Shown here: positions 48,448 to 64,000 of the stretch, piece after piece
How positions within the stretch are numbered: position 1 is the first letter of the stretch
Layout: every line of letters starts with the position of its first letter
Origin: Streptomyces sp. NBC_01353
GTDB lineage: Bacteria > Actinomycetota > Actinomycetes > Streptomycetales > Streptomycetaceae
Assembly: GCF_036237275.1 (NCBI RefSeq)
Contig: NZ_CP108352.1
Span: 4,712,001-4,776,000, forward strand
Direction: 5' to 3'
Length of the DNA stretch: 64,000 nt
Position numbers and translations under genes: made by a program
Notes under the pieces: model-generated
What the model saw: the letters and a program-made list of their open reading frames with translations, nothing else
What the model was told of the DNA's origin: nothing
Database searches by the model: none

Positions 48448-48951
48448 ATGCCCTTCACCGCACCCATCCTGCCCCCGGGAGAGCCGGCCGCCGCCGTCAC
48501 CCCGTACGGCAGCGCCGACACCACCCCGCCCGCCCGGCGGGCAGACCGCACAGGAGAGGCCATGGCCGACCGCAGCCCGAACCGCTTCCGTATCGACCGG
48601 AGTTCCGCCGAGGAGGAGTTCGGCCTCGCCTGCCAGCGGCTGATTCCGTGGCCCGGCGGGGACAAGGAGCCCCCGGTCGGCGCCATGGCCTGCTTCCTGA
48701 GGCCCGGCGGCGACTCCGACCCCGACTGCCACAACCAGGACGAGGTCATGATCATTCTCTCCGGCGCCGGCAGCGTGACCCTCGACGGCGTGCTCGAACC
48801 GCCGTTCCGCGCAGGCGACATCGTCGTCCTGCCCCGCAACCAGGAGCACGTCGTCCACAACACGGGCGACGAGGAGCTGAGCTGGGTCTCCCTCTACTGG
48901 CCGCTGCGCGAGCCCGCCGTCCGTACCGAGAACGAGGAGGTCGCGGCGTGA
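48448..48951 (+). CDS. Cupin protein, hydrazine-synthetase cupin component
   Basis: 167 residues from ATG 48448; an internal ATG at 48562 also has a good AGGAGAGG site and would drop a disordered 38-residue N-terminus. The cupin core runs from about residue 70 to 155. His95 and Glu99 (CHNQDE) and His134/His137 (QEHVVH) are likely metal ligands. In Spb40-type enzymes of s56-p1 biosynthesis a cupin and a MetRS-like domain are fused and join N6-hydroxylysine to glycine through an N-N bond. Here the two are separate genes overlapping by GTGA, which supports the same role. Confidence 0.85.
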   Translation: MPFTAPILPPGEPAAAVTPYGSADTTPPARRADRTGEAMADRSPNRFRIDRSSAEEEFGLACQRLIPWPGGDKEPPVGAMACFLRPGGDSDPDCHNQDEVMIILSGAGSVTLDGVLEPPFRAGDIVVLPRNQEHVVHNTGDEELSWVSLYWPLREPAVRTENEEVAA

Positions 48952-50540
48952 GCGCGACGCACTGGATCACCGCCACCCCGCCCACGCCCAACGGCGACCT
49001 GCACATCGGTCACCTCGCCGGCCCGTACCTCGCCGGTGACGTGCTGCGCCGCTATCTGGTGGCCGAGGGGGCCGGGACCGTCCGGTACACCACCGGCCTC
49101 GACGACAACCAGAGCTACGTTCCCGTCCGCGGCCTCAACGACGGCGGGCGCAAGGGCGAGGAGGTCGCCGACGGGTACGGCGCGTCCATCGAGTCCGTCT
49201 GGCGGCAGGCCGGCGCCGACTTCGACGCGATCGTCCGCCCGCGCCGTGACGTCGAGTACCAGTCGGTGGTGCAGGAGTTCTTCCAGCGGCTGTACGACTC
49301 CGGGCACATCGTCGCCCGTACTCGGCCGCTGCCGTACTGCACCGGCTGTGAGCGCTGGCTGTACGAGGCCTACCTCAAGGGCGGCTGCCCGCACTGCGGC
49401 TCAGGCTCGAACGGCAACGCCTGCGAGCCGTGCGGCCGGCCCAACGACTGCGCGGACCTGATCGACCCGGTCTGCACCGGCTGCGGTGCCACCCCCGAAC
49501 TCCGCGACTGCGAACGGCTCTACTTCCCCCTCGCCCCCTTCGAGGAGCAGCTCGCCACCTTCTGGGCCGAGGTCGACATGCCGCCGCACCTGCGGTCGCT
49601 GTGCGAGTGGATGCGCGTCGAGGGGCTGCCGGAGATCGCCGTCAGCCACCCCTCCGAATGGGGCGTGCCGGTACCGGTCGCGGGCTTCACCGAGCAGCGG
49701 ATCTACGTGTGGTTCGAGATGGCCCCCGGCTATCTGCTGGAGTGGACCGGCGCCGGGGAGACCGGGCCCGCGCCCGCGCCGGTGCAGTTCTTCGGCTTCG
49801 ACAACGGCTACTTCCACGCGCTGCTGTTCCCGGCGGCGTTCCGGGCGTACGACGCGGAGATCGCGCTGCCGAAGGCGTTCGTGGTCAACGAGTTCTACCG
49901 GCTCGAGGGGCTGAAGTTCTCCACGAGCCGACGGCACGCCATCTGGGCGCACGAGGAGCTGGCCCGTACGAGCGCGGACGTGCTGCGCTACCACGTGCTG
50001 TCGGACCGGCCCAACGGACGGCAGACCAGTTTCAGTTCGGCCGCGCTCGAGATCAGCCGGTCGCGGCTGGCGGACCGTTGGGACGGCTGGCTGGGCCGAC
50101 TGTTCGCCGCCGTCGCCGAGGGCGGAGGCGTGGTCCCGGCCGAGGCGCCGCGGGGTGCTGCCTGGGAGCGGCTGCGCGGGCGACTGACGGAGACCGTCGG
50201 ACAGCTGCGGGAGGCGTACGGGGTCGAGGGGTACGACGCCCGACGGGCGGTCGCGCTCCTCGACGAAGTGGTCGCGCTCGCGGAGGACTTCGGGTACGTG
50301 AACGGCTTCGAGGCGGAGCGGCCGGACGGCGCCTCGGCGTACCGCGCCGCGCTGGCCGCGCAGCTGGCCGTGGCCGCCGCGCTGTCGGCGTGGGCCGCGC
50401 CCGCGCTGCCGTACGGCTCGGCGCGGCTGTCGGAACTCCTCGGCCTGCCGACGGTACGCCCCGTGGACGCGGTGGCCCTGACGCCACTGGTCCCGGGCGC
50501 GCCGCTGGCGGCCTGGCCGGGGACGGTCTTCGGTGGCTGA
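48948..50540 (+). CDS. MetRS-like class I ligase, hydrazine-synthetase component
   Basis: 530 residues. Class I aminoacyl-tRNA synthetase fold: HIGH at 19-22, a zinc-knuckle region with eight cysteines between about 131 and 175, and a KMSKS-equivalent KFSTS at 323-327. The C-terminal part is a shortened anticodon-binding-like helical domain. It should activate an amino acid, glycine in characterised relatives, which is then attacked by N6-hydroxylysine; the cupin rearranges the ester to the hydrazine. It overlaps the cupin gene by four bases and the FAD gene by eight. Confidence 0.88.
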   Translation: MSATHWITATPPTPNGDLHIGHLAGPYLAGDVLRRYLVAEGAGTVRYTTGLDDNQSYVPVRGLNDGGRKGEEVADGYGASIESVWRQAGADFDAIVRPRRDVEYQSVVQEFFQRLYDSGHIVARTRPLPYCTGCERWLYEAYLKGGCPHCGSGSNGNACEPCGRPNDCADLIDPVCTGCGATPELRDCERLYFPLAPFEEQLATFWAEVDMPPHLRSLCEWMRVEGLPEIAVSHPSEWGVPVPVAGFTEQRIYVWFEMAPGYLLEWTGAGETGPAPAPVQFFGFDNGYFHALLFPAAFRAYDAEIALPKAFVVNEFYRLEGLKFSTSRRHAIWAHEELARTSADVLRYHVLSDRPNGRQTSFSSAALEISRSRLADRWDGWLGRLFAAVAEGGGVVPAEAPRGAAWERLRGRLTETVGQLREAYGVEGYDARRAVALLDEVVALAEDFGYVNGFEAERPDGASAYRAALAAQLAVAAALSAWAAPALPYGSARLSELLGLPTVRPVDAVALTPLVPGAPLAAWPGTVFGG

Positions 50541-52779
50541 GGCCATCGGGGGTGTCGGTACCGGGTCCCCGGGCTTCCGTGCCCGGTCCGCCTCCGCCGA
50601 GCCCGCCGGTGCCGAATCCGTGCTGCCCCGTGGCGCCGTCGTCGGGCCCTTCTCCGGGCCCCGGGCGGCATGGGGCGAGCATCTGGAACGGGCCGCCGCC
50701 CTGTACGGGGACGTCAACTGGGAGCTGTACGACGACCGGGGGGAGGCGGAGACGGCCCGGCAGATCGCCGAGGCCGTGGTCGCCGAAGGCCGGCACACGC
50801 TGGTGATCGGCCACTTCAACAGCGCCGGCGCCCGGGCCGCGCTCCCCGTCTACCGGTCCGGCGGCCTGCCCGTCCTGCTGCCGCTGGCCACGACGCCGGA
50901 CCTGCTCGCCGACTGCGGGGGCACGGTTCTGCGCTGGTGCCCGGACGACCGTGCCCAGGCGGCGGATCTGCTCGCCGCCGTCGGTGCGGCCGGCCACACC
51001 CGGATCGCCGTCACGCACGACGGGACGGCGTACGGGGAGGGCCTGGCGCGCCTGGTACGGGACGCGTGGCCCGCAGGCGAGCACGCCCGCCCCGGTACGG
51101 CCGCCGGCCTTCCGGCCGGGCCCGTCGTCTCGGACGGCAGCGGCCCGGCGACCGGAGCGCTGCCGGGCGTCGGCCCGTTGGCGACCGGCTTCCGCACGCC
51201 GGCGGGAGCGCCGGACGTCGTCTCCTCCCCCGGGGCCGACGCGGCCGCGCTCACCGCGCTCGTCGTGTGCGGGACCCACGGCGGGGCCGCGCGGGTCGGG
51301 CGGGAGTGGCGGGAGGCGGGGTTCGACGGGGAGCTGTACTTCACCGACGACTGCGCGGTCGACGAGTTCTCCGAGCTCCTCGGGGACGCGGACCGGGACG
51401 CGAACCCGGGTGCGAACCGGGGCGCTCGTGTGGCCCGGATGCGCGGAGGGCCGGAAGCCCACGTCATGGCCGCCTTCGCGGCGGCGACCGAGGCGCTCAC
51501 CGAGAACCCGGAGCGCACCGGGCGGATCCTGCTCTCCGCCGTACGGGCCCATGCCGACCGGGCGTTCACCGCGCTCGGGGAGCCCGTGGAGGGGAGCGTG
51601 GGCTGGGACTTCGTGCCCGTACCCGTACCCGCTCCGTCGCGTACGTCGACGTCCTCGGGCGGTGGCGGTGGTCACCGGGGCCGGGCCTACGACGTGATCG
51701 TCGTCGGCGCCGGAGTCGTCGGGGCCGCGACCGCCGCCGTGCTCGCCAGGCAGGGCGCGCGCGTGGCGCTCGTCGCGCCGATGGACGGGTGCCGTGACCA
51801 CGCCACCGCCTGGTCCGGTGGGCTCGTACGGGCCTTCGAGGCCGACCCGTATCTGCGGGGGCTCGCCCTCCGCAGCCATCAGCTGGCCTGGGGGCCCGCG
51901 GCCCTGGTCCCGGGACCGTACGGCTTCGTGCCGACCGGTTCGCTCGTGCTGTGCGGCGATGCCGACCTGGACCAGGCCGAGAAGGGCGTCGCCGAGCTCA
52001 ATGGCGCGGGTGTACCGGCGGAGCTGCTGGAGCCCGGGGTGCTCAGGGAGCGGTTCCCGGGGCTGTCGGTGGACGGGGTGAGCGCTGCGGTGTGGGAGCC
52101 GGAGGGCGGCTACGCCGATCCGCCGCGCACCGCGCGCGTGTACCGCGACCGGGCGCTGGCCCACGGGGCCCGGCTGCTGCCCGCCCGCGTGCGGGAACTG
52201 GTCGCGCCGCCCGGGGCCGACCGGGTGCGGGTCCTGCTGGAACCGGGCGGGCCCGTCGAGGCCCTGGCCGTCGTCCTGGCGGCCGGCAGCGGCACCGGGG
52301 CGATCGCCGGGCACCGGCTGAGCGGCTCGGACGCGGGGCGGACGAAGAGCATTCGGTACGGCTTCTTCCACCACCCGGACACGGCCGGTCTGCCGACCGT
52401 CGTCGACATGGTGACCGGCGTCTGGGGTCGGCCCCAGGTCTCCGGGGAGGCGGCGGGCGGGTACATGGCGGGGCGCCCCGTCGACGAGTGGGACGTACCC
52501 GCGGGCGGCGAGGACACGCTCACCGACGAGCACGTGGCGTACATCCGCCAAGGGGCGGCCGCACGCTGGCCCTGGCTCGCGGACCCGGCGACCCGCTTCC
52601 TCGGCGGCCGGCAGGGCGTCGACCTGTACACCCCGCACTCCCTGCCCCACCTCGGCCGGGAACGGCCCGACAGCCGCATCGTGCTGGCCACCGGCTGGTC
52701 CGGCGCCGGCTTCAAGACGGCCCCGGCAGCAGCCGAACTCGCGGCGGCGGAAGCCCTGGACGTCCTGTCGAGCACCTGA
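50533..52779 (+). CDS. FAD-dependent oxidase (DAO family) fused to a periplasmic-binding-like domain
   Basis: 748 residues in one frame. Residues about 33-370 resemble a type I periplasmic binding protein of the branched-chain amino acid class (GAVVGPFSGP, AVTHDGTAYGEGLARLV) but without a signal peptide. Residues about 384-748 form a D-amino-acid-oxidase-type flavoprotein starting YDVIVVGAGVVGAA and ending with ATGWSGAGFK. In s56-p1-type pathways an FAD enzyme cleaves the lysine-derived hydrazine to release hydrazinoacetate; that reaction is inferred here. The binding domain may hold the substrate amino acid. The start overlaps the ligase gene. Confidence 0.85.
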   Translation: MAEAIGGVGTGSPGFRARSASAEPAGAESVLPRGAVVGPFSGPRAAWGEHLERAAALYGDVNWELYDDRGEAETARQIAEAVVAEGRHTLVIGHFNSAGARAALPVYRSGGLPVLLPLATTPDLLADCGGTVLRWCPDDRAQAADLLAAVGAAGHTRIAVTHDGTAYGEGLARLVRDAWPAGEHARPGTAAGLPAGPVVSDGSGPATGALPGVGPLATGFRTPAGAPDVVSSPGADAAALTALVVCGTHGGAARVGREWREAGFDGELYFTDDCAVDEFSELLGDADRDANPGANRGARVARMRGGPEAHVMAAFAAATEALTENPERTGRILLSAVRAHADRAFTALGEPVEGSVGWDFVPVPVPAPSRTSTSSGGGGGHRGRAYDVIVVGAGVVGAATAAVLARQGARVALVAPMDGCRDHATAWSGGLVRAFEADPYLRGLALRSHQLAWGPAALVPGPYGFVPTGSLVLCGDADLDQAEKGVAELNGAGVPAELLEPGVLRERFPGLSVDGVSAAVWEPEGGYADPPRTARVYRDRALAHGARLLPARVRELVAPPGADRVRVLLEPGGPVEALAVVLAAGSGTGAIAGHRLSGSDAGRTKSIRYGFFHHPDTAGLPTVVDMVTGVWGRPQVSGEAAGGYMAGRPVDEWDVPAGGEDTLTDEHVAYIRQGAAARWPWLADPATRFLGGRQGVDLYTPHSLPHLGRERPDSRIVLATGWSGAGFKTAPAAAELAAAEALDVLSST

Positions 52780-52851
52780 CGCCGCCTGACAGGCCCGGCG
52801 GTCCGACGCCGGGTCTGTCCCCAACCCCCCACCCCACCGGAGGTGACACCC

Positions 52852-54102
52852 ATGACGGATCTCATGTCCCGCCCCTCGCCCCCCGGCAGGGAGGCGTCCG
52901 CGAAGAAGCTCGGCGTTCGGGCCCTCGTCGTCTTCTACGTCAGCAGCCTCGTCGGGACCGGCATTCTGCTCGTGCCCGGGCTGACCGAGCGGCAGGCCGG
53001 GCCCGCCTCCGTGTTGGCGTGGCTCGCGCTGGCCGTCTGTTCGTACCCGTTCGCCCGGTTCTTCGCAGAGATGTCCGCCTGGCGGCCCGACGCCGCCGGG
53101 CTCGCCGCGATGGTGACCGCCGGGCTCGGGCGGCGGCCGGGGCGGGCCGCCGCGCTGCTGCTCGTCGCGACGTACGTCATCGGCAACCCGGTCATGGGCA
53201 TCGTCTCCGCCCGCTGTCTGCTGGGCCTGCTCGGGCAGCCCGACGGGCCGGTGTACCCGATCGCCATGGGCTTCATGGCCCTGTCCGCCGCGTTCACCCT
53301 CCTCGGGCTCACCGCCGGCGCGCGCGTCCAGGCCGCCTCGCTCGTCGTGCTGCTGCTCGGGCTCGGCGGGGCCGTGGTGGTCGCCGCACCGCGGTTCGAC
53401 GCGGGGGAGTACACGCCGTTCCTGACGAACGGCTGGGACGGCGTCGGCATCGCCGTCGTCACCGCGTTCTTCTCCTTCCTCGGCTGGGAGAACGTCTCCA
53501 CGCTCGCCGATCAGGTCGACGACCCCGCCCGTAGCTACCGCCGCGCCATCCGCTGGGCCGTGCCCGTCGTCGGGCTGCTCTACGCCGCCGTCACCGCCGC
53601 CTACCTGGCGGTCCCCGGCGACGAACCCGTCGTCATCACCGCCCTGTTGGGCGCATCCCTCGGCGAAGCCGGCGCCGTCGCCGGCGATCTGCTCGCCCTC
53701 GGCCTCGCGGTCGTCGCCACCAACGCCTGGGTCCTCGGCGCCACCCGCGTCGTCCGGGCCGCCGCCCGCGACCGCATCCTGCCGCGCGCCCTGGCCGACC
53801 GGCCCGTGCCGGCCACCGTCGCCCTGACCCTCGCCTACACGGCCGTCCTCGGCGCCCTGACCCTCACCGACACCGGCGAGGAGCTCGTCCTCATCGTCAC
53901 CAGCAGCGCCTTCCTGCTGCTGTACGTCGCGGCGGCCGCCGCCGCCCTCCGGGCCCGCGGCACCGGGCGCGCCCTGCGCACCACCGCCGTCGTGACCCTG
54001 GTCATCGCCGCCGTCTTCCTCTCCTTCGCCGGTACGGGGCTCCTGCTGGCGCTGCTTCTCGCCGCCGGCTGCGCCGCCCTCACCGCCCGCACGACCTCCT
54101 GA
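52852..54102 (+). CDS. APC-family amino acid permease
   Basis: 416 residues with about 12 transmembrane segments. The N-terminal helix with GTGILLVPGL matches the GSGI substrate-binding break of APC transporters. It could import lysine or export an amino-acid-like product. ATG 52852 follows a perfect GGAGGTGA. It sits inside the hydrazine operon between the oxidase and the N-hydroxylase. Confidence 0.88.
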   Translation: MTDLMSRPSPPGREASAKKLGVRALVVFYVSSLVGTGILLVPGLTERQAGPASVLAWLALAVCSYPFARFFAEMSAWRPDAAGLAAMVTAGLGRRPGRAAALLLVATYVIGNPVMGIVSARCLLGLLGQPDGPVYPIAMGFMALSAAFTLLGLTAGARVQAASLVVLLLGLGGAVVVAAPRFDAGEYTPFLTNGWDGVGIAVVTAFFSFLGWENVSTLADQVDDPARSYRRAIRWAVPVVGLLYAAVTAAYLAVPGDEPVVITALLGASLGEAGAVAGDLLALGLAVVATNAWVLGATRVVRAAARDRILPRALADRPVPATVALTLAYTAVLGALTLTDTGEELVLIVTSSAFLLLYVAAAAAALRARGTGRALRTTAVVTLVIAAVFLSFAGTGLLLALLLAAGCAALTARTTS

Positions 54103-54119
54103 AACCGAAAGGCACCACC

Positions 54120-55436
54120 ATGAACGAGACCACTCCCGTCTACGACGTCGTCGGTGTCGGCTTCGGCCCCGCCAACCTCGCCCTGGCCATCGCCATCGAG
54201 GAGCACAACGAGCGGGCCGCGCCCGACGAGAAGCTCACCGCCGTCTTCCTGGAGAAGCAGCCTGCCTTCGGCTGGCACCGCGGCATGTTGATCCCGGACG
54301 CCACCATGCAGGTCTCGTTCCTCAAGGACCTGGCCACGATGCGCAACCCGACGAGCCGCTTCGGCTTCGTGCCGTACCTCCACGACCGGGGCCGACTGGT
54401 CGACTTCATCAACCACAAGGTGCTGTTCCCCACCCGTGAGGAGTTCCACGACTACCTCCAGTGGGCCGCCAACGGCGTGGACCACATGGTCCGTTACGGC
54501 CTCGAGGTCACCGGCATCCGCGCCGCCACCCAGGCAGGACCGGTCGTCGAGGTCGACGTCGCCGCGCGCGGGGAGGCCGAGGCGGTCACGTACCGGGCCC
54601 GCAACCTGGTCCTCGGTACCGGCCTCGTGCCCCGCCTGCCCGAGGGCGTCGACTCCTCCGAACGCCTCTGGCACAGCAGCGAGTTCCTGCACCGACTCGC
54701 CGCGCTGCCCACCGAGAACCCGCGCCGCTTCGTGGTCGCCGGCGCCGGACAGAGCGCCGCCGAGATCGCCGACCATCTCCACCGCACGTACGAGAACGCC
54801 GAGGTCGTCGCCGTCCACACGCGCTACGGCTACAGCCCCGCCGACGACAGCCCGTACGCGAACCGCATCTTCGACCCGGAGGCCGTCGACCTCTACCACG
54901 GCGCCGACGCGGACGTCCGGCGCAAGCTGATGGCCTACCACCGCAACACCAACTACGGCGTGGTGGACATGGACCTCATCGAGGAGCTCTACCGCCGCTC
55001 CTACCAGGAGAAGGTCCGCGGCGAGCGCCGCCTGCGCATCATGGGCGCCTCGCAGCTGACATCGGTCGAGGCCGACGCCGACGAGGTCCGGGTCCGGGTG
55101 CGCAATCTCGCGACCGGTGAGACCGAGGCGCTCACCGCCGACGCCGTCGTCTACGCCACCGGCTACGCGGAGCCCGACCCGGCCCGCCTCCTCGGCGAAC
55201 TGAACGAGGCCTGCGAGCGCGACGAGGACGGCCGGCTGCGCGTGCACCGCGACTACCGCGTGCGGACGGGACCGGAGCTGGAGGCGGGCGTCTATCTGAT
55301 GGGCGGGACCGAGCACAGTCACGGCATCACCGCGAACCTCCTGTCGATGGCCGCCGTGCGGGCGGGCGAGATCTGCGACTCCCTCGCGACCGGCCGCCGG
55401 TCCGACAGGCGAGCGCCGGTGGCGGCCCGCGGCTGA
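54120..55436 (+). CDS. L-lysine N6-monooxygenase
   Basis: 438 residues, class B flavin N-hydroxylase like IucD/SidA. FAD site GVGFGPANLA at about residue 12, the substrate stretch ATMQVSFLKDLATMRNPTS, NADPH site VAGAGQSAAE near 206 and ATGY near 345. It would make N6-hydroxylysine, the N-O nucleophile of the hydrazine synthetase. The genome context (cupin, MetRS-like, DAO) argues for this rather than for a siderophore, since no siderophore synthetase is nearby. Confidence 0.92.
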   Translation: MNETTPVYDVVGVGFGPANLALAIAIEEHNERAAPDEKLTAVFLEKQPAFGWHRGMLIPDATMQVSFLKDLATMRNPTSRFGFVPYLHDRGRLVDFINHKVLFPTREEFHDYLQWAANGVDHMVRYGLEVTGIRAATQAGPVVEVDVAARGEAEAVTYRARNLVLGTGLVPRLPEGVDSSERLWHSSEFLHRLAALPTENPRRFVVAGAGQSAAEIADHLHRTYENAEVVAVHTRYGYSPADDSPYANRIFDPEAVDLYHGADADVRRKLMAYHRNTNYGVVDMDLIEELYRRSYQEKVRGERRLRIMGASQLTSVEADADEVRVRVRNLATGETEALTADAVVYATGYAEPDPARLLGELNEACERDEDGRLRVHRDYRVRTGPELEAGVYLMGGTEHSHGITANLLSMAAVRAGEICDSLATGRRSDRRAPVAARG

Positions 55437-55536: not shown

Positions 55537-56247
55537 ATGAGCACCGCCGCCGAGCAGGTACCCGCGCCGGACGAACTGGCCGCCACCGAGCGGACCCGGC
55601 TGCGCCGGATGCGCCACAAGGGCAGTCACCGGCGCGCCGATCTGGAGGCGGTGCTCGCCGCCGGCTTCCTCTGCCACCTGGGCGTCACCGTCGACGGGAC
55701 CACGATGGTCGTGCCCACGGCGTACGGCACCGACGGCGAGCGGCTCTATCTGCACGGCTCGGTCGCCAGCCGCAGCCTGGTCCAGGCGCCCGACGCGACC
55801 GTCTGCGTCACCGTGACGCACGTCGACGGCCTGGTGCTCGCCCGCTCCGTGTTCGAGCACGGCGTCAACTACCGCTGCGCGATGATCTACGGCGTCCCGC
55901 GGCTCGTCACGGACCCGGAGGAGAAGCTGCGGGGGCTGCGCGCGCTCACGGAGCAGTGCGCGCCGGGGCAGTGGGAGTACGCCCGGCAGCCCAGCCGTAA
56001 GGAGCTCGCGGCGACCGCGCTGGTGGCGCTCGATCTCGTCGAGGCCTCGGTGAAGATCGCCACCGGGCCGCCGGACGACGGGGACAGCGAGGACGCCGCA
56101 CTGGGGCTGTGGGCCGGGGTGCTGCCGGTGGTCACCACGTTCGGGGAGCCGGTCGCCGATCCCGTCCTGCCGGCCGACATCGACCTGCCGGCGCACATCG
56201 CGGACCGCGCGGGCCGCGTCCTGACCGGCGAGACGGTCCAGGCATGA
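55537..56247 (+). CDS. Pyridoxamine 5'-phosphate oxidase-family flavin protein
   Basis: 236 residues. Split-barrel fold of the PPOX/FMN-binding group: MRHKGSHRRADLEAVLAAGFLCHLGV, then VVPTAYGTDGERLYLHGS, the FMN-phosphate-binding strands. It lacks the C-terminal substrate region of true PdxH. It may reduce or oxidise a pathway intermediate with FMN or F420. ATG 55537 follows AAGAGGA; the stop overlaps the aminotransferase start (ATGA), so they are coupled. Confidence 0.83.
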   Translation: MSTAAEQVPAPDELAATERTRLRRMRHKGSHRRADLEAVLAAGFLCHLGVTVDGTTMVVPTAYGTDGERLYLHGSVASRSLVQAPDATVCVTVTHVDGLVLARSVFEHGVNYRCAMIYGVPRLVTDPEEKLRGLRALTEQCAPGQWEYARQPSRKELAATALVALDLVEASVKIATGPPDDGDSEDAALGLWAGVLPVVTTFGEPVADPVLPADIDLPAHIADRAGRVLTGETVQA

Positions 56248-57584
56248 CGCGCACGAACGCCGACGCGCGTGCCGCCGACCGTGCCCATGTCTTCCACTCC
56301 TGGTCCGCGCAGGCGCAGACCGAGCCGATGCCGGTGGCCGGTGCCTCCGGCGCGTATTTCTGGGACCACGAGGGCAACAGCTACCTCGATTTCTCCTCCC
56401 AGCTCGTCTACACCAACATCGGCCACCAGCACCCCCGGGTCGTCGCCGCGATCCAGGAGCAGGCGGGGCAGTTGTGCACCGTCGCGCCGAGCTTCGCCGT
56501 CGACATCCGCTCCGAGGCCGCCCGGCTGATCGCCGAGCACACCCCCGGCGACCTGGACAGGATCTTCTTCACCACTGGCGGCGCGGAGGCGGTCGAGCAC
56601 GCGGTACGGATGGCCCGGCTCCACACCGGCCGGCACAAGGTCCTGTCCGCGTACCGCTCGTACCACGGCGCCACCTCCACCGCGATCCACCTGACCGGCG
56701 ACCCGCGCCGCTGGCCCTCGGACACCGGCGCCGCCGGGGTCGTCCACTTCTGGGGTCCGTACGCCTACCGGTCGTCCTTCCACGCCACGGACGAGCGGCA
56801 GGAGTGCGAGCGGGCCCTGCGCCACCTGGAGGAGACGATCGTCGGCGAGGGGCCCGGCACGATCGCGGCGGTCCTCCTCGAATCGGTGGTCGGTACGGCC
56901 GGTGTGCTCGTGCCCCCGGACGGCTATCTCGCCGGGGTACGCGAGCTGTGCGACCGGTACGGCATCGTGTTCGTCCTGGACGAGGTGATGGCCGGCTTCG
57001 GGCGCACGGGTCGCTGGTTCGCGGCCGACCACTGGGGCGTGGTCCCGGATCTGCTCACCTTCGCCAAGGGCGTCAACTCCGGTTACGTACCGCTGGGCGG
57101 GGTCGCCGTCGGCGAGAAGATCGCCTCGACCTTCGCCGACCGGCCGTACCCCGGCGGTCTGACCTACTCCGGGCATCCGCTGGCCTGTGCGGCGGCGGTG
57201 GCCACCATCGAGACCATGCGCGCCGAGCGCATCGTCGAGCACGCGGCCGACCTCGGCGCGCGTGTCCTCGGCCCGGGATTGCGTGAACTCGCCAATCGGC
57301 ACCCCAGTATCGGTGAAGTCCGCGGCCTCGGCGCCTTCTGGGCACTGGAGTTGGTCGCCGACCGTGGTACGCGCGAGCCGCTCGTCCCCTACGCGGCCAC
57401 CGGCGAGGCGGCCGCGCCGATGGGCCGGGTCGCCGCGGCCTGCAAGGCACGCGGGCTGTGGCCCTTCATCCACATGAACCGCATCCATGTCGCCCCGCCG
57501 TGCAACCTGACAGAGTCCGAGGCGAAGGATGGACTCGCGATTCTCGACGAGGCGCTGGACGTCGCCGATGCGGAGGTGCGGTGA
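56244..57584 (+). CDS. Class III aminotransferase
   Basis: 446 residues, fold type I PLP enzyme. TTGGAEAVEHAVRMAR binds the cofactor phosphate, FVLDEVMAGFGRTG holds the pyridine-binding Asp, and Lys275 in TFAKGVNSGY is the Schiff-base residue. Close to omega-amino acid:pyruvate enzymes. It might interconvert an aldehyde such as the semialdehyde left when the lysine hydrazine is oxidised; this is inferred from context only. Confidence 0.88.
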   Translation: MTRTNADARAADRAHVFHSWSAQAQTEPMPVAGASGAYFWDHEGNSYLDFSSQLVYTNIGHQHPRVVAAIQEQAGQLCTVAPSFAVDIRSEAARLIAEHTPGDLDRIFFTTGGAEAVEHAVRMARLHTGRHKVLSAYRSYHGATSTAIHLTGDPRRWPSDTGAAGVVHFWGPYAYRSSFHATDERQECERALRHLEETIVGEGPGTIAAVLLESVVGTAGVLVPPDGYLAGVRELCDRYGIVFVLDEVMAGFGRTGRWFAADHWGVVPDLLTFAKGVNSGYVPLGGVAVGEKIASTFADRPYPGGLTYSGHPLACAAAVATIETMRAERIVEHAADLGARVLGPGLRELANRHPSIGEVRGLGAFWALELVADRGTREPLVPYAATGEAAAPMGRVAAACKARGLWPFIHMNRIHVAPPCNLTESEAKDGLAILDEALDVADAEVR

Positions 57585-57819
57585 TCAGGGCGGGACCTGG
57601 TCAGATTTGTTCGCCCTTCATCATTTGCCCGTGTTTCCCAGAAGTCGGCGTCTGAAACACCCAATTGATCCGGTGCCCATTCCCGCTGCCGTCCTGTACC
57701 GTCACAGACTCATAAGGGTGCCCTGATCTCCGTACCGGAATCGACCGTCCGGCGCCGAATGATTCGGGGCGATTAAAGGATTCGATCGTGAATCGACCCG
57801 TTGAGTGAGGAGGGGGACA

Positions 57820-58857
57820 GTGGGGGGCTTCGCCGACCCGTGCCGTGGGACGCGACCGGGCACGGACTTCTCGTCGTTGGCAGCGCTGATAGGGCAGGAC
57901 GAGACCTGCGTCGACGTCTACCGCCTGGTGATCAGCGAGCCGCGCTGGGGGCTCACGGAGATCGCCGGGGAGCTGCATGTCGAAGAAGCCGCGGTCCGGG
58001 GGTGTCTGGACAAGCTCGCGGAGCTCTCGATGCTCTATCCCACCAAGGACGCCACGGATGTCGCCCCCATCAGTCCCGAAGTCGGCCTCGCCGCCCACAT
58101 TCACCGCCGGGAAACCGAAATTCACTCCCAGCAGCTGGAGTTGGCGGCGATGCGGGCGGCGACCGCCGAACTGACCGCGATCTACGCCTCGCAGCGGGGC
58201 CGGCACAACAACGTCGGTCTGGAACAGCTCGAAGGCGTCAACGAGGTACGGGCCAGGCTTTCGGAACTGGCCCGGCACGCGACCACCGAGATCCTCGCCT
58301 TCATGCCCGGCGGCGCGCAGAGCCCCGAGGCGCTCGAGGCCAGCCGGCCGCTCGACGAGCAGACGCTGGCCGCCGGTGTGAGGCTACGGACGATCTATCT
58401 GGACAGCGTGCGCAACGACCGGGCGACCACCGAGTACGCCCGGTGGCTCGCCGAACTCGGCGGCGAGATCCGCACGATGCCGTCGCTGCCACTGCGGATG
58501 CTGATCGCCGACCGTTCGGTGGCGCTGCTGCCGGTCAGCCCCGAGGACACCCGGGCGGGCGCGGTCATCCTGCGCGCGCCGGGGGTGGTGACCGCGCTGC
58601 TCGCGCTCTTCGAGATGGTCTGGGAGCGGGCCACACCGCTGCACGGCCGCTCGCGGCCGTCCGCCGGCGCGCCGTCGGAGCAGGAGATCGAGCTGCTCAG
58701 GCTGTTGCAGAAGGGGCACACGGACGAGGTGGCGGCCCGCAAGCTCGGCCTCTCCCTGCGGACGACCCGTCGGATGATGTCCGGCATCTCGCACCGCCTC
58801 GGCGCCCGCAGCCGCTTCGAAACAGGCGTCCTCGCGGAACGCGCCGGCTGGCTCTGA
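57820..58857 (+). CDS. TrmB/LuxR-type cluster regulator 2
   Basis: 345 residues and paralogous to the regulator at 45946-47055: an N-terminal winged-helix-like region (GLTEIAGELHVEEAAVRGCLDKLAEL), a middle domain with the same RxLYL...LGGxIRTMPSLPLRML pattern, and a C-terminal LuxR helix-turn-helix (TDEVAARKLGLSLRTTRRMM). It sits between the hydrazine operon and the halogenation operon and may control the latter. GTG 57820 is chosen because GAGGAGGGG lies directly upstream. A hairpin follows. Confidence 0.85.
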   Translation: MGGFADPCRGTRPGTDFSSLAALIGQDETCVDVYRLVISEPRWGLTEIAGELHVEEAAVRGCLDKLAELSMLYPTKDATDVAPISPEVGLAAHIHRRETEIHSQQLELAAMRAATAELTAIYASQRGRHNNVGLEQLEGVNEVRARLSELARHATTEILAFMPGGAQSPEALEASRPLDEQTLAAGVRLRTIYLDSVRNDRATTEYARWLAELGGEIRTMPSLPLRMLIADRSVALLPVSPEDTRAGAVILRAPGVVTALLALFEMVWERATPLHGRSRPSAGAPSEQEIELLRLLQKGHTDEVAARKLGLSLRTTRRMMSGISHRLGARSRFETGVLAERAGWL

Positions 58858-58896: not shown

Positions 58897-58965
58897 GGTG
58901 CCATGGCAGGAAGATGCCCGGATCTTTCGGACGTGCGGTGCGAAGCGGCTGGGATTCTCTCTGCC

Positions 58966-59286
58966 ATGTACGCCATCCATCTCGAGGTCCCGCGGCTCGA
59001 TCCCGGTGAGCTGGCCAGAGCGGTGTCCCAGGTCTCCAGCTGTCAGGTGGAGCACGTCTATCTGCCCAGACTGCCGGAGCCTGAGCAGCGCTCCGTCGTG
59101 TTCGTTTCCGCCGACTCCGCGCCCGAGGCCGGCACGGGCGTCCTTGCCGCCGTCCGGTTCCTGCTGCGGCCCCCGGTCGGCCGGATGCGGGTCGAGCTGA
59201 GAGTGCCCCGCGCGGGCCGGGACGTCGGGCTCTGCCACGGCGTCGTGTCCGTCGTCCCCGTCCTCGACGACCACCGCCGCCGCTGA
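58966..59286 (+). CDS. Small protein of unknown function in the cluster
   Basis: About 106 residues from ATG 58966; an in-frame ATG at 58903 gives 127 residues, and neither has a clear ribosome site. The sequence alternates hydrophobic strands and a helix (MYAIHLEVPRLDPGELARAV), with two cysteines and an Arg-rich end. No family is recognised. Its position between the regulator terminator and the halogenation operon suggests a cluster role. The coding call rests on streptomycete third-position GC bias and is moderate. Confidence 0.5.
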   Translation: MYAIHLEVPRLDPGELARAVSQVSSCQVEHVYLPRLPEPEQRSVVFVSADSAPEAGTGVLAAVRFLLRPPVGRMRVELRVPRAGRDVGLCHGVVSVVPVLDDHRRR

Positions 59287-59464
59287 CCCTGGCCACTTGC
59301 AGCCACTGCACCTTGGTGCCACGGGATTCCCTTGAAGGGCCCGGCCGTCGGCTGACACATTCAGCAGGGCGAGGGCGGCCGGAATAGCCGCCGAAAACCC
59401 GGGCGCGCCGAAACGTCGAGAATTCCGAAATCTCCGCTCCATGACTGGGAAAGGCTCCACGTCT

Positions 59465-61324
59465 ATGAATCCTGGTGCGATGTCCAGCGAATCGCTCGAC
59501 GATTCGCTCACCCTGCACGAGAACTTCGAGCGGGTCGCCGCGCGCTTCCCGGAGTCGGTGGCGGTCACCGACGGCCGGTCGCGGCTGACGTACCGCGAAC
59601 TCGACGCGCGCGCCGGGCGGTTGGCCCAGGTGCTGCGCGGGGCCGGCGTCGGACGGGACCAGCGCGTCGGACTCTGCCTGGAGCGCGGTACGGATCTCGT
59701 CGTCGGCCTCCTCGGCATCCTCAAGGCGGGCGCGGGCTACGTCCCGATCGATCCGGCCTACCCCGCCGAGCGCCGGGACTTCGTCCTCGACAGCTGCGAC
59801 GCGCCGGTCGTCGTCGCGAGCACGGCCACCGCCCCGCTGGCCGGCGGCCGTACGGCCGTCCTCGTGGACGCGCTGCCCGAGAGCGCCGCCGAGACCCCCG
59901 CCGGGCACGAGGGCGCGGGCGCGTCGAGCCTGGCGTACACGATCTTCACCTCCGGCTCCTCCGGCGAGCCCAAGGGCGTCCTGGTCGAACACCGCAACGC
60001 GGTCCGGCTCTTCACCTCCACCGCGCCGGTCTTCGGCTTCGACGAGACCGACGTCTGGTCGAACTTCCACTCCGCCGCCTTCGACTTCTCCGTCTGGGAG
60101 ATCTGGGGCGCCCTGCTCCACGGCGGCCGCCTGGTCGTCGTCGACAACGAGACGGCCCGCGACCCGCAGGCCCTCCACGCCCTGCTGCGCCGCGAGCGCG
60201 TGACGGTCCTCAACCAGACGCCGTCCGCCTTCCGCAACCTCATGAACGTCATGGCCGCCGACACCGAGCCCGGCTCGCTCAGCCTGCGGTACGTCGTCTT
60301 CGGCGGCGAGAAGCTGGACTACCGCGCCCTCACGCCGTGGACCGACCGGCACGGCCTGGACGCGCCGGTGCTCGTCAACATGTACGGCATCACCGAGACC
60401 ACCGTGCACGTCACCTGGAAGCGGATCTCGGCCGCCGACCTGACCGCCGCCCCGGCCGTCGAGGGCCTCAGCCCGATCGGCGCGGCCATCCCCGACCTGC
60501 GGATCGACATCCGCGACGAGGAGGGCACCTCTCTCCCGGTCGGAACGGAGGGCGTCATCCACGTCTCCGGCGCCGGTGTCGCCCGCGGCTATCTGAACCA
60601 CCCCGAGCTGACCGCGGAGCGCTTCTCCGAGCGCACCGAGGCCGACGGGACGACCGTGCGCTGGTACGACTCCGGCGACCGCGGTGTGCAGACCGCCCCC
60701 GGGGAGTTCGCGTACGCCGGCCGCGCCGACCGGCAGCTGAAGATCCGCGGCTACCGGATCGAGCCCGGCGAGATCGAGTCCGTGGTGAAGAAGCACCCGG
60801 CCGTCCGGGACGCCGTGGTCCTCGCCGCCGACTTCGGCTCCGGAGAGCCGCGGCTGGTCGCCTTCCCGGTGACGGCCGCCGCACCGGAGCAGCTGACAGC
60901 GGAGCTCAAGGAGGCCGTCGCGACCGCGCTGCCCGTCTACATGGCCCCCTCGGCCTATCTGCCCCTCGACGAGCTCCCGGTCACCGTGAACGGCAAGCTC
61001 GACGAGAGCGTGCTGCGCAAGCGCCTGGAGCTGAAGCTCGCCGAGGCCGCCAAGGGATCCACCGGCGAAGACCCCGCCGAGAAGGGGGCCTCCGTCGAGG
61101 AGATCCTGCGCGGGATCTGGGCCGAGGTCCTCGGCACCCACGAGATCGGTGACACCGACGAATTCTTCGACCTCGGCGGAACGTCCTTCTCGCTGATTCA
61201 CATGCTGAGCGTCGTCAACGACCGATTCTCGCTCTCCCTGAACGTCGGCACGCTCGCCGAAGGCGCGAACATCGGCGCACTCGCCGCGGCCGTCAAGAAC
61301 CAGCTCGCCCTCATCTCCCAGTAG
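59465..61324 (+). CDS. NRPS adenylation-carrier didomain, threonine-type (SyrB1-like)
   Basis: About 619 residues. All adenylation cores are visible: [12 protein letters not shown] (A3), FDFSVWEIW (A4), NMYGITETT (A5), WYDSGDRG (A7), [15 protein letters not shown] (A8) and VNGKL (A10). A carrier domain follows with the phosphopantetheine Ser574 in LGGTSFSLI. The specificity residues read by eye as D-F-W-N-V-G-M-V-H-K, one conservative change from the textbook threonine code DFWNIGMVHK. There is no condensation domain, so it is a loading platform for a tailoring enzyme. ATG 59465 follows GGGAAAGG; 59441 is an alternative start. Confidence 0.92.
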
Positions 61325-61335
61325 GAGCGCCGGAC

Positions 61336-62277
61336 ATGACCACGGACACCCCGAAGGCACAGCAGTCGTTCGCTCTTTCCGACGAAGAGATAAAGCAGTT
61401 CCACCAGCAGGGATTCATCGGTCCCTTCACGGCCTACCAGCCCGACGAGATGCGCGAGATCTGGCGCAGGACCCGGCTGCAGATGCTGGACCGCAGCCAC
61501 GCCGTCTACCCGGACGACGAGCTCTCCGGCGCCACCAACATCTCCAACTACGACCGCCACCTCGACAACGACTTCCTCGCCGCCCACGTCGGAAAGCGCG
61601 AGATCGTCGACCGGGTCGCCTCCATCCTCGGCCCGGACGTCATTTGCTGGCGTACGGAGTTCTTCCCCAAGCACCCCGGCGACGAGGGCACCGACTGGCA
61701 CCAGGCCGACACCTTCGCCAACGCCTCCGGCACCCCGCAGATCCTGTGGCCGGACAACGCCGAGTTCGGCGGCACCATCACCGTCTGGTCCGCCTTCACC
61801 GAGGCGACGGTGGCGAACGGCTGCCTGCAGTTCATCCCCGGCACGCACCAGCAGATGAACTACGACGAGACCAAGAAGATGCACTACGACCCGAACTCGA
61901 TCAACGGGGTCGACAAGGGCGGCGTGCGCCGCGGCTTCTTCGGCTACGACTACCGCGAGCTGCAGGTCGACCCCGACTGGAAGCCGGACGAGGACGCGGC
62001 CGTCTCGCAGATCATGGAGCCGGGCCAGTTCATCATCTTCTGGTCGACGCTGATGCACGCCTCGCACCCGCACGAGGGCCTGACCAACGACATGCGGATG
62101 GGCTTCGCCACCCGCTACGTCCCCTCCTCGGTCTCCGTCTACCCGGGCAGCGACCACATCGAGGAGTACGGAGGCCGCATCAGCCTGGAGCGGTACGGCT
62201 CCGTCCTGGTCAGCGGCGAGAACAAGAACCCCGGCAACCGCATGGTCACGGAGACCACCCGGGGGATGAAGTTCTGA
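61336..62277 (+). CDS. Non-heme Fe(II)/2-oxoglutarate halogenase, SyrB2-like
   Basis: 313 residues. Often labelled phytanoyl-CoA dioxygenase, but the first metal motif reads His122-Gln-Ala124 where hydroxylases have HxD/E. The missing carboxylate leaves room for chloride and is the mark of SyrB2/CytC3-type halogenases. His241 is the distal Fe ligand and Arg260 binds 2-oxoglutarate; all four positions equal SyrB2 numbering (116, 118, 235, 254) plus six. It should chlorinate carrier-bound Thr at C4. AGGAG precedes the ATG; it is 11 bases after the didomain gene. Confidence 0.93.
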
Positions 62278-62278
62278 G

Positions 62279-63448
62279 ATGACCACGAAAACCCTGAGCG
62301 TGGTAGAGGTGCTGGAACTCTGCCAGCCACTGCTCGGCGCGGCCGCGGAGACCCTGCGGGTCTTCCCGGCCGGCGAGCGGGCCGCCGAGGAGTACGGGCC
62401 GAAGGCCGTCGCACGGTGCAACGAGGTCCTCACCGCCCTCGGCTCCGCGTACGGCCTGACGGTCCCCCGGTTCGTCTCGCCGGCCCCGGAGCGCCCGTCC
62501 AGCCTGGAGGTCGCCCTCAGCGCCTACTGCGATCTGGAGCTGGGCAGTTGGCGGCCGGTGGCCGAGAGCTCGGGGGAGTGGGACATTCCGGCGGACGGCC
62601 TGGCCGGGCTCGCGGCCCTGCCCGGCCACCGCCGGATCGAGGCCGAGGGCGTGCCCGCCTTCGACTCCTTCGCGGCGGGGCCGGCCGGGGACGAGGCGAT
62701 CGTCCTCGTCCTGCCCTCCGGGGTGCCGGCCACGCTGTTCCGGCCCTGGCTGGAAGAGCTGTCCACGGACCGGCTCGTCGTCACGTACGAGAACCCGTAC
62801 CTCTTCGGGCAGTGGCGGACCCTGGACACCCCGGAAGCGGACTTCGCGGAGGAGACCGCGCTGGTCGGCGCCCTGCTCACGGCGTACGGACTGCGGCGGG
62901 CGCACCTCGTCGGGATCTGCGGAGGAGCGCCGGTCGCCCTCGACGCGGCCGCCGCGTTCGGCGACCGGGTGGAGACGCTGACGGTGCTCCACCCTGATCT
63001 GAACTTCGGGGCGGGGGTCATGCGCACCCCGTTCCAGAAGCAGTTCCAGAGCGTGCTCGCCGGGGCGGCCTCCGGCCCGCGCCGGGCCCGCGAGACGCTG
63101 AACCTGTTCCTCGACCCGAACATGCTCTTCGGGGTGCCGCCGCGCCTGGCCCCGTACGTCCTCTACCCGTACGGAGATGTGGAGCTGTTCCACCGGTACG
63201 CCAAGCAGAACCACGCGCTCATGGCGTACGACGCGAACGACGCCGCCCGCCGGGTCGGGCAGCGGGTGCTGATCGCCACCAGCCGTACGGACCGGATGAC
63301 CCACCCCGAGACGGCGCACCACTTCGGTGAGCTCGTGGCGGGCGAGGTCACGGTCGTGGAGCGCGGCGCCGGGAACCACCACGACATCCTGATCCCGGAC
63401 GCGGAGGTCTACACGATGCTCCGGGAGTTCATCGGCGGTGGGGTGTGA
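62279..63448 (+). CDS. SyrC-like acyltransferase/thioesterase with Cys nucleophile
   Basis: 389 residues, alpha/beta-hydrolase fold. The nucleophile elbow is GICGG with Cys214; Asp338 (RTDRMTHPE) and His367 or His368 (GNHHDIL) complete the triad. SyrC and CmaE, which move chlorinated aminoacyl groups between carrier proteins, use the same Cys-type triad. It would off-load or transfer the chloro-Thr group. An N-terminal helical region of about 120 residues precedes the fold. It starts one base after the halogenase stop and overlaps the next start (GTGA). Confidence 0.85.
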   Translation: MTTKTLSVVEVLELCQPLLGAAAETLRVFPAGERAAEEYGPKAVARCNEVLTALGSAYGLTVPRFVSPAPERPSSLEVALSAYCDLELGSWRPVAESSGEWDIPADGLAGLAALPGHRRIEAEGVPAFDSFAAGPAGDEAIVLVLPSGVPATLFRPWLEELSTDRLVVTYENPYLFGQWRTLDTPEADFAEETALVGALLTAYGLRRAHLVGICGGAPVALDAAAAFGDRVETLTVLHPDLNFGAGVMRTPFQKQFQSVLAGAASGPRRARETLNLFLDPNMLFGVPPRLAPYVLYPYGDVELFHRYAKQNHALMAYDANDAARRVGQRVLIATSRTDRMTHPETAHHFGELVAGEVTVVERGAGNHHDILIPDAEVYTMLREFIGGGV

Positions 63449-64000
63449 GCACGCCCACGCCGTCGGCGGAGCGCGTCGCGGTGGTGACCCACGCGACGCG
63501 CTACGCGGGCCCCGGCTCCGTGGACGGCCTGCGCAAGGCCGGCTACACCGTCCTCTGCCACGACGAGGACTTCCTCGACGAGGCCGCGCGGACCGCCTTC
63601 GAGGAGGGTCGCGACGGGGCGGTGGCCTGCGACGCGAAGACCCCGACCGGGGCGGTCGGGCAGGCCGTCAAGCGGTATGGCCGGCTCGACCTCGTCGTCA
63701 GCAACGACGTCTACCCGGCCCGCTATCTGCCGGTGGACCAGGCCGACCCGGCGGAGCTGCGGCGGGCCGCCGAGGCACTGCTCGTCACCCCTGCGGCAGT
63801 GATCGCGAAGGCCGCCGCCCCGATGAAACGCCGGGGGAGCGGGCACATCGTGCTGATGACCTCCGCCGCGCCGCTGCGGCCGGAGACCGGGTTCTCCGTG
63901 TACAGCTCGCTGCGCGCCGGAGCCTCGGCCTACGCACGGGCGGCGGCGCGCGAACTCGCCCCGCACGGCGTCACCGTGCACGCGATCGCCCCCAACTTCC
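63445..64000 (+). CDS. Halohydrin dehalogenase (partial at window end)
   Basis: 185 complete codons, open at the right edge. SDR-like fold but with the two halohydrin dehalogenase signatures: T-x4-F/Y-x-G at Thr15...Tyr20-Ala-Gly22 in place of the nucleotide-binding GxxxGxG, and S-x12-Y-x3-R at Ser140, Tyr153, Arg157. These equal HheC Ser132/Tyr145/Arg149 plus eight. From memory HheC also shares SND, SGHI and YxSxRAGA. Such enzymes turn vicinal halohydrins into epoxides without cofactor; 4-chlorothreonine is a vicinal chlorohydrin. The GTG start overlaps the SyrC-like stop. Confidence 0.88.
   Translation, partial: MSTPTPSAERVAVVTHATRYAGPGSVDGLRKAGYTVLCHDEDFLDEAARTAFEEGRDGAVACDAKTPTGAVGQAVKRYGRLDLVVSNDVYPARYLPVDQADPAELRRAAEALLVTPAAVIAKAAAPMKRRGSGHIVLMTSAAPLRPETGFSVYSSLRAGASAYARAAARELAPHGVTVHAIAPNF

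Follow-up and report, generated by a model that had tools for sequence, protein, structure and literature searches.

The window analyzed here, a 64,000-nucleotide stretch of Streptomyces sp. NBC_01353 (G000:C1:4712001-4776000), ends in four genes on one strand that encode an adenylation-thiolation (A-T) didomain, a SyrB2-like halogenase, a SyrC-like transferase, and a halohydrin dehalogenase (HHDH). The four genes are present in this order and nearly touch each other, as an earlier sequence-only reading of the window had described (Table 1). The junctions measure 11 bp (A-T/halogenase) and 1 bp (halogenase/SyrC-like) and are followed by a 4-bp overlap (SyrC-like/HHDH). The start at 59465 given in that reading is an internal in-frame ATG of the A-T open reading frame (ORF), which begins further upstream. 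The end of the window cuts the HHDH gene after 185 codons, and the remaining 191 bases were taken from the same genome, which yields a protein of 248 residues.

The A-T protein is recognized by the Pfam families AMP-binding (289 bits) and PP-binding (47 bits). Its A-domain pocket, read like all pocket codes at alignment positions, is DFWNVGMVH over nine aligned positions and is identical in the corresponding clusters of two other genomes of the genus, G310 and G485. The pocket comes near the reference threonine code, DFWNIGMVHK, which agrees with the Thr-type assignment of the sequence-only reading. Matches in the PDB include CytC1 (3vnq) and 5n9w (E 3e-109), the latter presumably being Thr1 from a 4-chlorothreonine producer. 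The halogenase reaches 474.5 bits against the NCBIfam chlorinating enzyme model TIGR01762 (cut-off 226.3) and 509 bits against the SyrB2 structure 2fct, to which it aligns from residue 10 to its end. SyrB2-type aliphatic halogenases are marked by H-x-A in place of H-x-D/E. The enzyme keeps this feature as the HQA triad within the stretch WHQADTFAN, and the earlier SyrB2-like assignment stands.

The third protein scores 22 bits against the alpha/beta-hydrolase family of Pfam, below the cut-off of 25.8, and its best evidence in a PDB search is weak (E 0.0014). Modeled alone, it reached a predicted local distance difference test (pLDDT) score of 44.6, and the model was not used. Its assignment as SyrC-like is based on the GxCxG nucleophile, the position of the gene, and 12 similar proteins that lie beside other halogenases. 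The motif reads GICGG, with a candidate Asp and His downstream, and the nucleophilic Cys is kept in these 12 proteins and in both relatives (G310 and G485). Of the Cys transferase proposed earlier, the nucleophile was thus found, but the family score is weak.

Table 1. Features of the cluster and its surroundings. Positions above 64000 extend the window numbering into the same genome.
Feature	Position	Strand	Remark
A-T didomain, predicted Thr-activating	59441..61324	+	ORF list, Pfam, pocket, PDB matches
SyrB2-like Fe(II)/2-oxoglutarate halogenase	61336..62277	+	TIGR01762, 2fct, WHQADTFAN
SyrC-like aminoacyl transferase	62279..63448	+	Cys214, candidate Asp338 and His367; weak to Pfam/PDB alone
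Halohydrin dehalogenase (HHDH)	63445..64000, continuing to 64191 (L004:5445-6191)	+	PDB matches, motifs
T-TE (thiolation-thioesterase) protein	64229-65305		Same operon, right after HHDH
Nonribosomal peptide synthetase (NRPS)	65529-73784 (L004:7529-15781)		Two A, two T, two condensation (C) domains, methyltransferase; C-terminal C domain read by eye
Major facilitator superfamily (MFS) protein	73781-75061		Downstream
YqcI/YcgG-family protein	75070-75735 (L004:17070-17732)		Pfam 27.8 bits, cut-off 27
Phosphopantetheinyl transferase			Downstream of YqcI/YcgG gene
RsgA-like ribosome GTPase	L004:18458-19630		Adjoins cluster in all three genomes
GntD/VioC-like 2-oxoglutarate hydroxylase	L005:377-1597		NF041363 414.7 bits, cut-off 345
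Cupin	48562-48951	+	Possible nitrogen-nitrogen (N-N) module
Methionyl-tRNA synthetase (MetRS)-like	48948-50540	+	N-N module
Flavin adenine dinucleotide (FAD) oxidase fusion	50533-52779	+	N-terminal periplasmic-binding-protein-like domain
Permease	52843-54102	+	N-N module
Lys/Orn N-hydroxylase	54120-55436	+	N-N module
Pyridoxamine-phosphate-oxidase-like (PNPOx-like) protein	55537..56247	+	With core in three genomes
Class III aminotransferase	56241-57584		No match in G485 or G310 stretches
LuxR-like regulator	57805..58857	+	GerE 19.9 bits, below cut-off 23.5; kept with core in G310 and G485
Small protein, no Pfam family	58903..59286	+	61% and 79% identical in two relatives

The halohydrin dehalogenase

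Among the best 60 of 205 PDB matches to the HHDH, the top ten score 151-175 bits, nine of them being named halohydrin dehalogenase or epoxidase and one "dehalogenase". Among entries with other names, 8xxb ("Short-chain dehydrogenase/reductase SDR") scores highest at 102.5 bits, and the best 3-oxoacyl-ACP reductase stands at 88.3 bits. The protein shares 40.5% of its residues with HheC (96/237 positions). HHDHs are characterized by the fingerprints T-X4-F/Y-X-G and S-X12-Y-X3-R, as described in parts of two papers (PMC11976700, PMC4989007). The first occurs here as THATRYAG at residue 15 and the second as SAAPLRPETGFSVYSSLR at residue 140, and both are likewise found in G310 and G485. The glycine-rich nucleotide motif of short-chain dehydrogenases/reductases (SDRs) and their S-X10-14-Y-X3-K signature are found in none of the three cluster HHDH proteins. 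The HHDH assignment of the sequence-only reading therefore extends to the full-length protein.

An ordinary SDR dehydrogenase that merely resembles an HHDH is hardly credible. The protein does belong to the SDR superfamily (Pfam), and ordinary SDRs come close behind HHDHs in the fold search, but the nucleotide motif is missing, the SDR Lys is replaced by Arg, and the ten best sequence matches listed above are HHDHs or a dehalogenase. The fold test itself adds little: the first 14 Foldseek matches of a partial model (185/248 residues, pLDDT 68.6) are HHDHs or dehalogenases, but the template modeling (TM) scores are ~0.6, the root-mean-square deviations (rmsd) are 7-8, and FabG already appears at rank 15.

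These 14 matches include HheC in complex with ethyl (2S)-oxiran-2-ylacetate (4ixw), which corresponds to the epoxide expected here without the amino group and the thioester. Ethyl 4-chloro-3-hydroxybutyrate, in turn, is a known HHDH substrate, according to the available parts of PMC4989007 and PMC5292711, and is a chlorohydrin ester that lacks the amino group of 4-chlorothreonine. By our own derivation, the spatial arrangement at C3 of 4-chloro-L-threonine is that of the established HHDH substrate ethyl (S)-4-chloro-3-hydroxybutyrate. HheC-type HHDHs, which the cluster enzyme resembles in both fingerprints and in sequence identity, have been studied on xenobiotic haloalcohols, whereas the cluster enzyme belongs to an operon that also encodes an NRPS, with a halogenase close by.

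Recurrence of the gene set and control loci

Four overlapping genome samples were searched, comprising 392 genomes of the genus, 391 of the order, 199 relatives, and 396 of the phylum. The HHDH is found at E <=1e-40 in three genus genomes (this genome, G310, and G142), at E <=1e-35 in two order genomes (this genome and G485) and in one of the relatives (this genome alone), and at E 1e-28 in this genome and two distant genomes of the phylum sample. G310 and G485 retain the full gene order, from the PNPOx-like and LuxR-like genes through the hydroxylase. The four-gene arrangement, for which the sequence-only reading had suggested a database search, thus recurs in both, and this shared order marks it as more than a chance grouping. 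The HHDHs of G310 and G485 are 84% and 91% identical to that of the present cluster, and the YqcI/YcgG gene of G310 reaches 74% identity (tblastn). Ratios of nonsynonymous to synonymous substitution (dN/dS) for the HHDH lie at 0.17-0.31 across the cluster proteins, and the gene set is, judged from these sequences, under purifying selection in the relatives. The cluster occupies position 0.44 Mb of 7.65 Mb in G485 and 4.77 Mb of ~8.5 Mb (8.47-8.57) here, and nothing in the 3.3 kb read to its left in G485 matches the genes on the left of the cluster in the present genome. The differing position and the unmatched left flank suggest a mobile unit.

The halogenase has 45 matches in 40 of the 392 genus genomes, and 34 of the 43 loci outside this genome and G310 were read. 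Eleven of the 34 hold an A-T/halogenase/SyrC-like trio with a DFW(N/S)(V/I)GMVH pocket, and an HHDH (E 1e-4) accompanies none of the 11 in the stretches read (<=19.9 kb), which identifies the HHDH as a specific addition. The sole weak match among the 34 loci (L070, 30% over 128 residues) carries Y-x3-K and was set aside as an ordinary SDR. Conversely, no halogenase was found near the HHDH-like genes of G142, G857, and G926 in the stretches read. Given trios without an HHDH and stray HHDH-like genes without a halogenase, the HHDH is neither a general companion of chlorothreonine loci nor a random neighbor.

The stray genes were not counted as members of the group. The G142 protein (L018:7343-8062, 45% identical) has an intact first motif, but its catalytic Tyr is replaced by Pro, and the 19 kb read around it hold no other cluster homolog except a second, ordinary SDR match; it is possibly an inactive or repurposed HHDH. 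The G857 and G926 genes (33% identical, both motifs) have no other cluster-protein match in the sequence read around them (13 and 19 kb). Seven loci from a contig scan with the HHDH (27-33% identity) were not used as relatives, and the four that were aligned carry the Lys of ordinary SDRs (Y-x3-K).

The control loci bear on a nonbiosynthetic role, in which the HHDH would destroy stray 4-chlorothreonine for self-protection or salvage. HHDHs are known as catabolic enzymes, as stated in parts of PMC9396626 and PMC4989007. Such a role is nevertheless improbable, as the 11 other Thr-type trios manage without an HHDH in the stretches read, the gene overlaps its neighbor and is placed between the transferase and T-TE genes, and no epoxide hydrolase is recognized beside it, none being named in general family scans of the cluster proteins.

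A proposed route from threonine to an epoxide

The reading that we favor, with a probability of about 0.7, is a short peptide that ends in a 2-amino-3,4-epoxybutanoyl unit, in which the HHDH would close a 4-chlorothreonyl to the 3,4-epoxide. From the observed genes, family motifs, and conservation, we infer each of the following reaction steps. The A-T protein would activate and hold L-threonine, and the SyrB2-like halogenase would chlorinate C4 of the threonyl. The SyrC-like Cys enzyme would then pass the chlorothreonyl to the T-TE carrier, a free-standing protein without an A domain. A terminal C domain in the NRPS together with such a T-TE is the arrangement that a SyrC-like transferase would serve, and the predicted product is thus a short peptide whose last residue, the one added from the T-TE, derives from chlorothreonine. 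The HHDH would expel HCl between C4-Cl and C3-OH to form the epoxide, and it could act on free chlorothreonine, on the carrier-bound unit, or on the peptide. Chlorination followed by epoxide closure is what the sequence-only reading had proposed, and the family motifs support it at sequence level. Of the product named there, 2-amino-3,4-epoxybutanoate or its thioester, the 3,4-epoxide is still favored, but a peptide residue is likelier than a free amino acid, since the genes downstream encode the T-TE protein and an NRPS of two modules.

The same three enzyme types occur in syringomycin biosynthesis as SyrB1, SyrB2, and SyrC. The terminal C-T-TE of SyrE contains a carrier without an A domain that is loaded in trans with chlorothreonine. 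Syringomycin retains its chlorine, and we know of no HHDH in that system. Thr1 of Streptomyces sp. OH-5093 likewise pairs a Thr-activating A domain with chlorination; the product is free 4-chlorothreonine, and no HHDH step in its formation is known to us.

Epoxide formation from chlorothreonine is precedented, and a dedicated HHDH appears to be new. In largimycin, an epoxide is formed from a chlorinated Thr residue, and the chlorine is cryptic (PMC9396626). When the halogenase LrgH is deleted, a plain Thr side chain takes the place of the C18/C19 epoxide, and the authors propose closure of the chlorohydrin with the candidate enzymes not clear, as far as the accessible part of that paper goes (PMC9396626). 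A 2026 follow-up proposes that the chlorine is lost before the chain is off-loaded and, in the part available, names no enzyme (PMC13200230). LrgS, LrgH, and LrgY of Streptomyces argillaceus resemble the present set in that Thr is activated, its terminal carbon is chlorinated, and an epoxide is the end result; unlike here, the chlorothreonine starts a hybrid NRPS-PKS (polyketide synthase) chain, and the genome is reported to be without an HHDH homolog. The sequence-only reading had overlooked this epoxide, which is a precedent for the chemistry of its route. Its remark that it knew of no HHDH serving as a dedicated natural product step agrees with searches of the open-access literature. No such case appeared among the papers listed, nor did a matching epoxy amino acid or a chlorothreonine-plus-epoxide product, absence from that literature being weak evidence in either case.

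Several points weigh against the favored route. As far as we know, HHDHs have been studied on small free haloalcohols, whereas the favored route may require one to accept a substrate tied to a carrier or a peptide. Only three clusters were found (this one, G310, and G485), and database scores back the SyrC-like assignment only weakly. The largimycin producer, reportedly devoid of an HHDH homolog, still makes its epoxide (PMC9396626); hence chlorothreonine-to-epoxide chemistry does not depend on an HHDH.

If the route is correct, it would give a natural biosynthetic job to a family known mainly from pollutant breakdown and a named candidate to a dechlorination/epoxide step whose enzyme was missing. 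According to parts of a 2016 review, only two of the HHDH genes known at the time were found in one operon with an epoxide hydrolase, and physiological functions of another kind could not be excluded (PMC4989007). The cluster is a concrete candidate for such a function beyond catabolism, and its A-T/halogenase/SyrC-like/HHDH order offers a handle for genome mining. The epoxide would be reactive, and a short peptide bearing it is possibly a scaffold for covalent inhibitors.

Surrounding genes and the possible fate of the predicted epoxide

The genes upstream bear on whether the epoxide persists. The genes for the cupin, the MetRS-like protein, the FAD oxidase, and the N-hydroxylase are similar to those of the hydrazinoacetate pathway known from s56-p1 and azaserine, as far as it is described in the available part of PMC10445470. 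Spb40 is a fused cupin/MetRS didomain (PMC10445470), whereas two separate, overlapping genes are present here. The region 48562-55436 is possibly a hydrazine-type (N-N) accessory module. It is present here and in G485 but absent from the 39.4 kb read of G310, which makes it accessory at most.

The epoxide could be an intermediate that is later opened by water, a thiol, a peptide amine, or a hydrazine that the upstream module would supply, leaving a final product without an epoxide. We consider this a tentative possibility. Two of the three clusters have the hydrazine-type genes upstream, and in largimycins, according to parts of the follow-up study, some members bear an N-acetylcysteine conjugate in place of the epoxide and P450 mutants bear a C19 hydroxyl instead (PMC13200230). 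Against this, no dedicated ring-opening enzyme is recognized among the proteins scanned, and the G310 cluster has an HHDH without the N-N module in the stretch read, so opening by hydrazine is not a general role. A more far-reaching version of the favored epoxide closure, which we hold to be unlikely, is that the HHDH evolved for biosynthesis, setting a 3,4-epoxide warhead on a carrier- or peptide-bound 4-chlorothreonyl, and that in the two clusters with a hydrazine module an N-N nucleophile captures the epoxide to form a new ring system.

The A-domain pockets of the NRPS read DILQLGLI (first) and DPCTMAAVD (second); the first fits the glycine code, and the second matches no code known to us. 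By eye, a truncated epimerization-like stretch is apparent between the second carrier and the last C domain.

Downstream lies the YqcI/YcgG gene, whose family includes N-oxygenases. An HHDH that swaps chloride for another anion (nitrite, cyanide, or azide), with the epoxide only transient in the active site, would fit such a neighbor, but no anion-making gene is recognized among the proteins scanned, and we regard this exchange as very improbable. HHDHs do accept nucleophiles of the nitrite, cyanide, and azide type, as described in parts of PMC4989007 and PMC11976700. The YqcI/YcgG protein and the 2-oxoglutarate hydroxylase, both kept in the three clusters, also hint at an unusual arginine-derived residue. 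The RsgA-like GTPase could be a mere neighbor or a self-protection gene.

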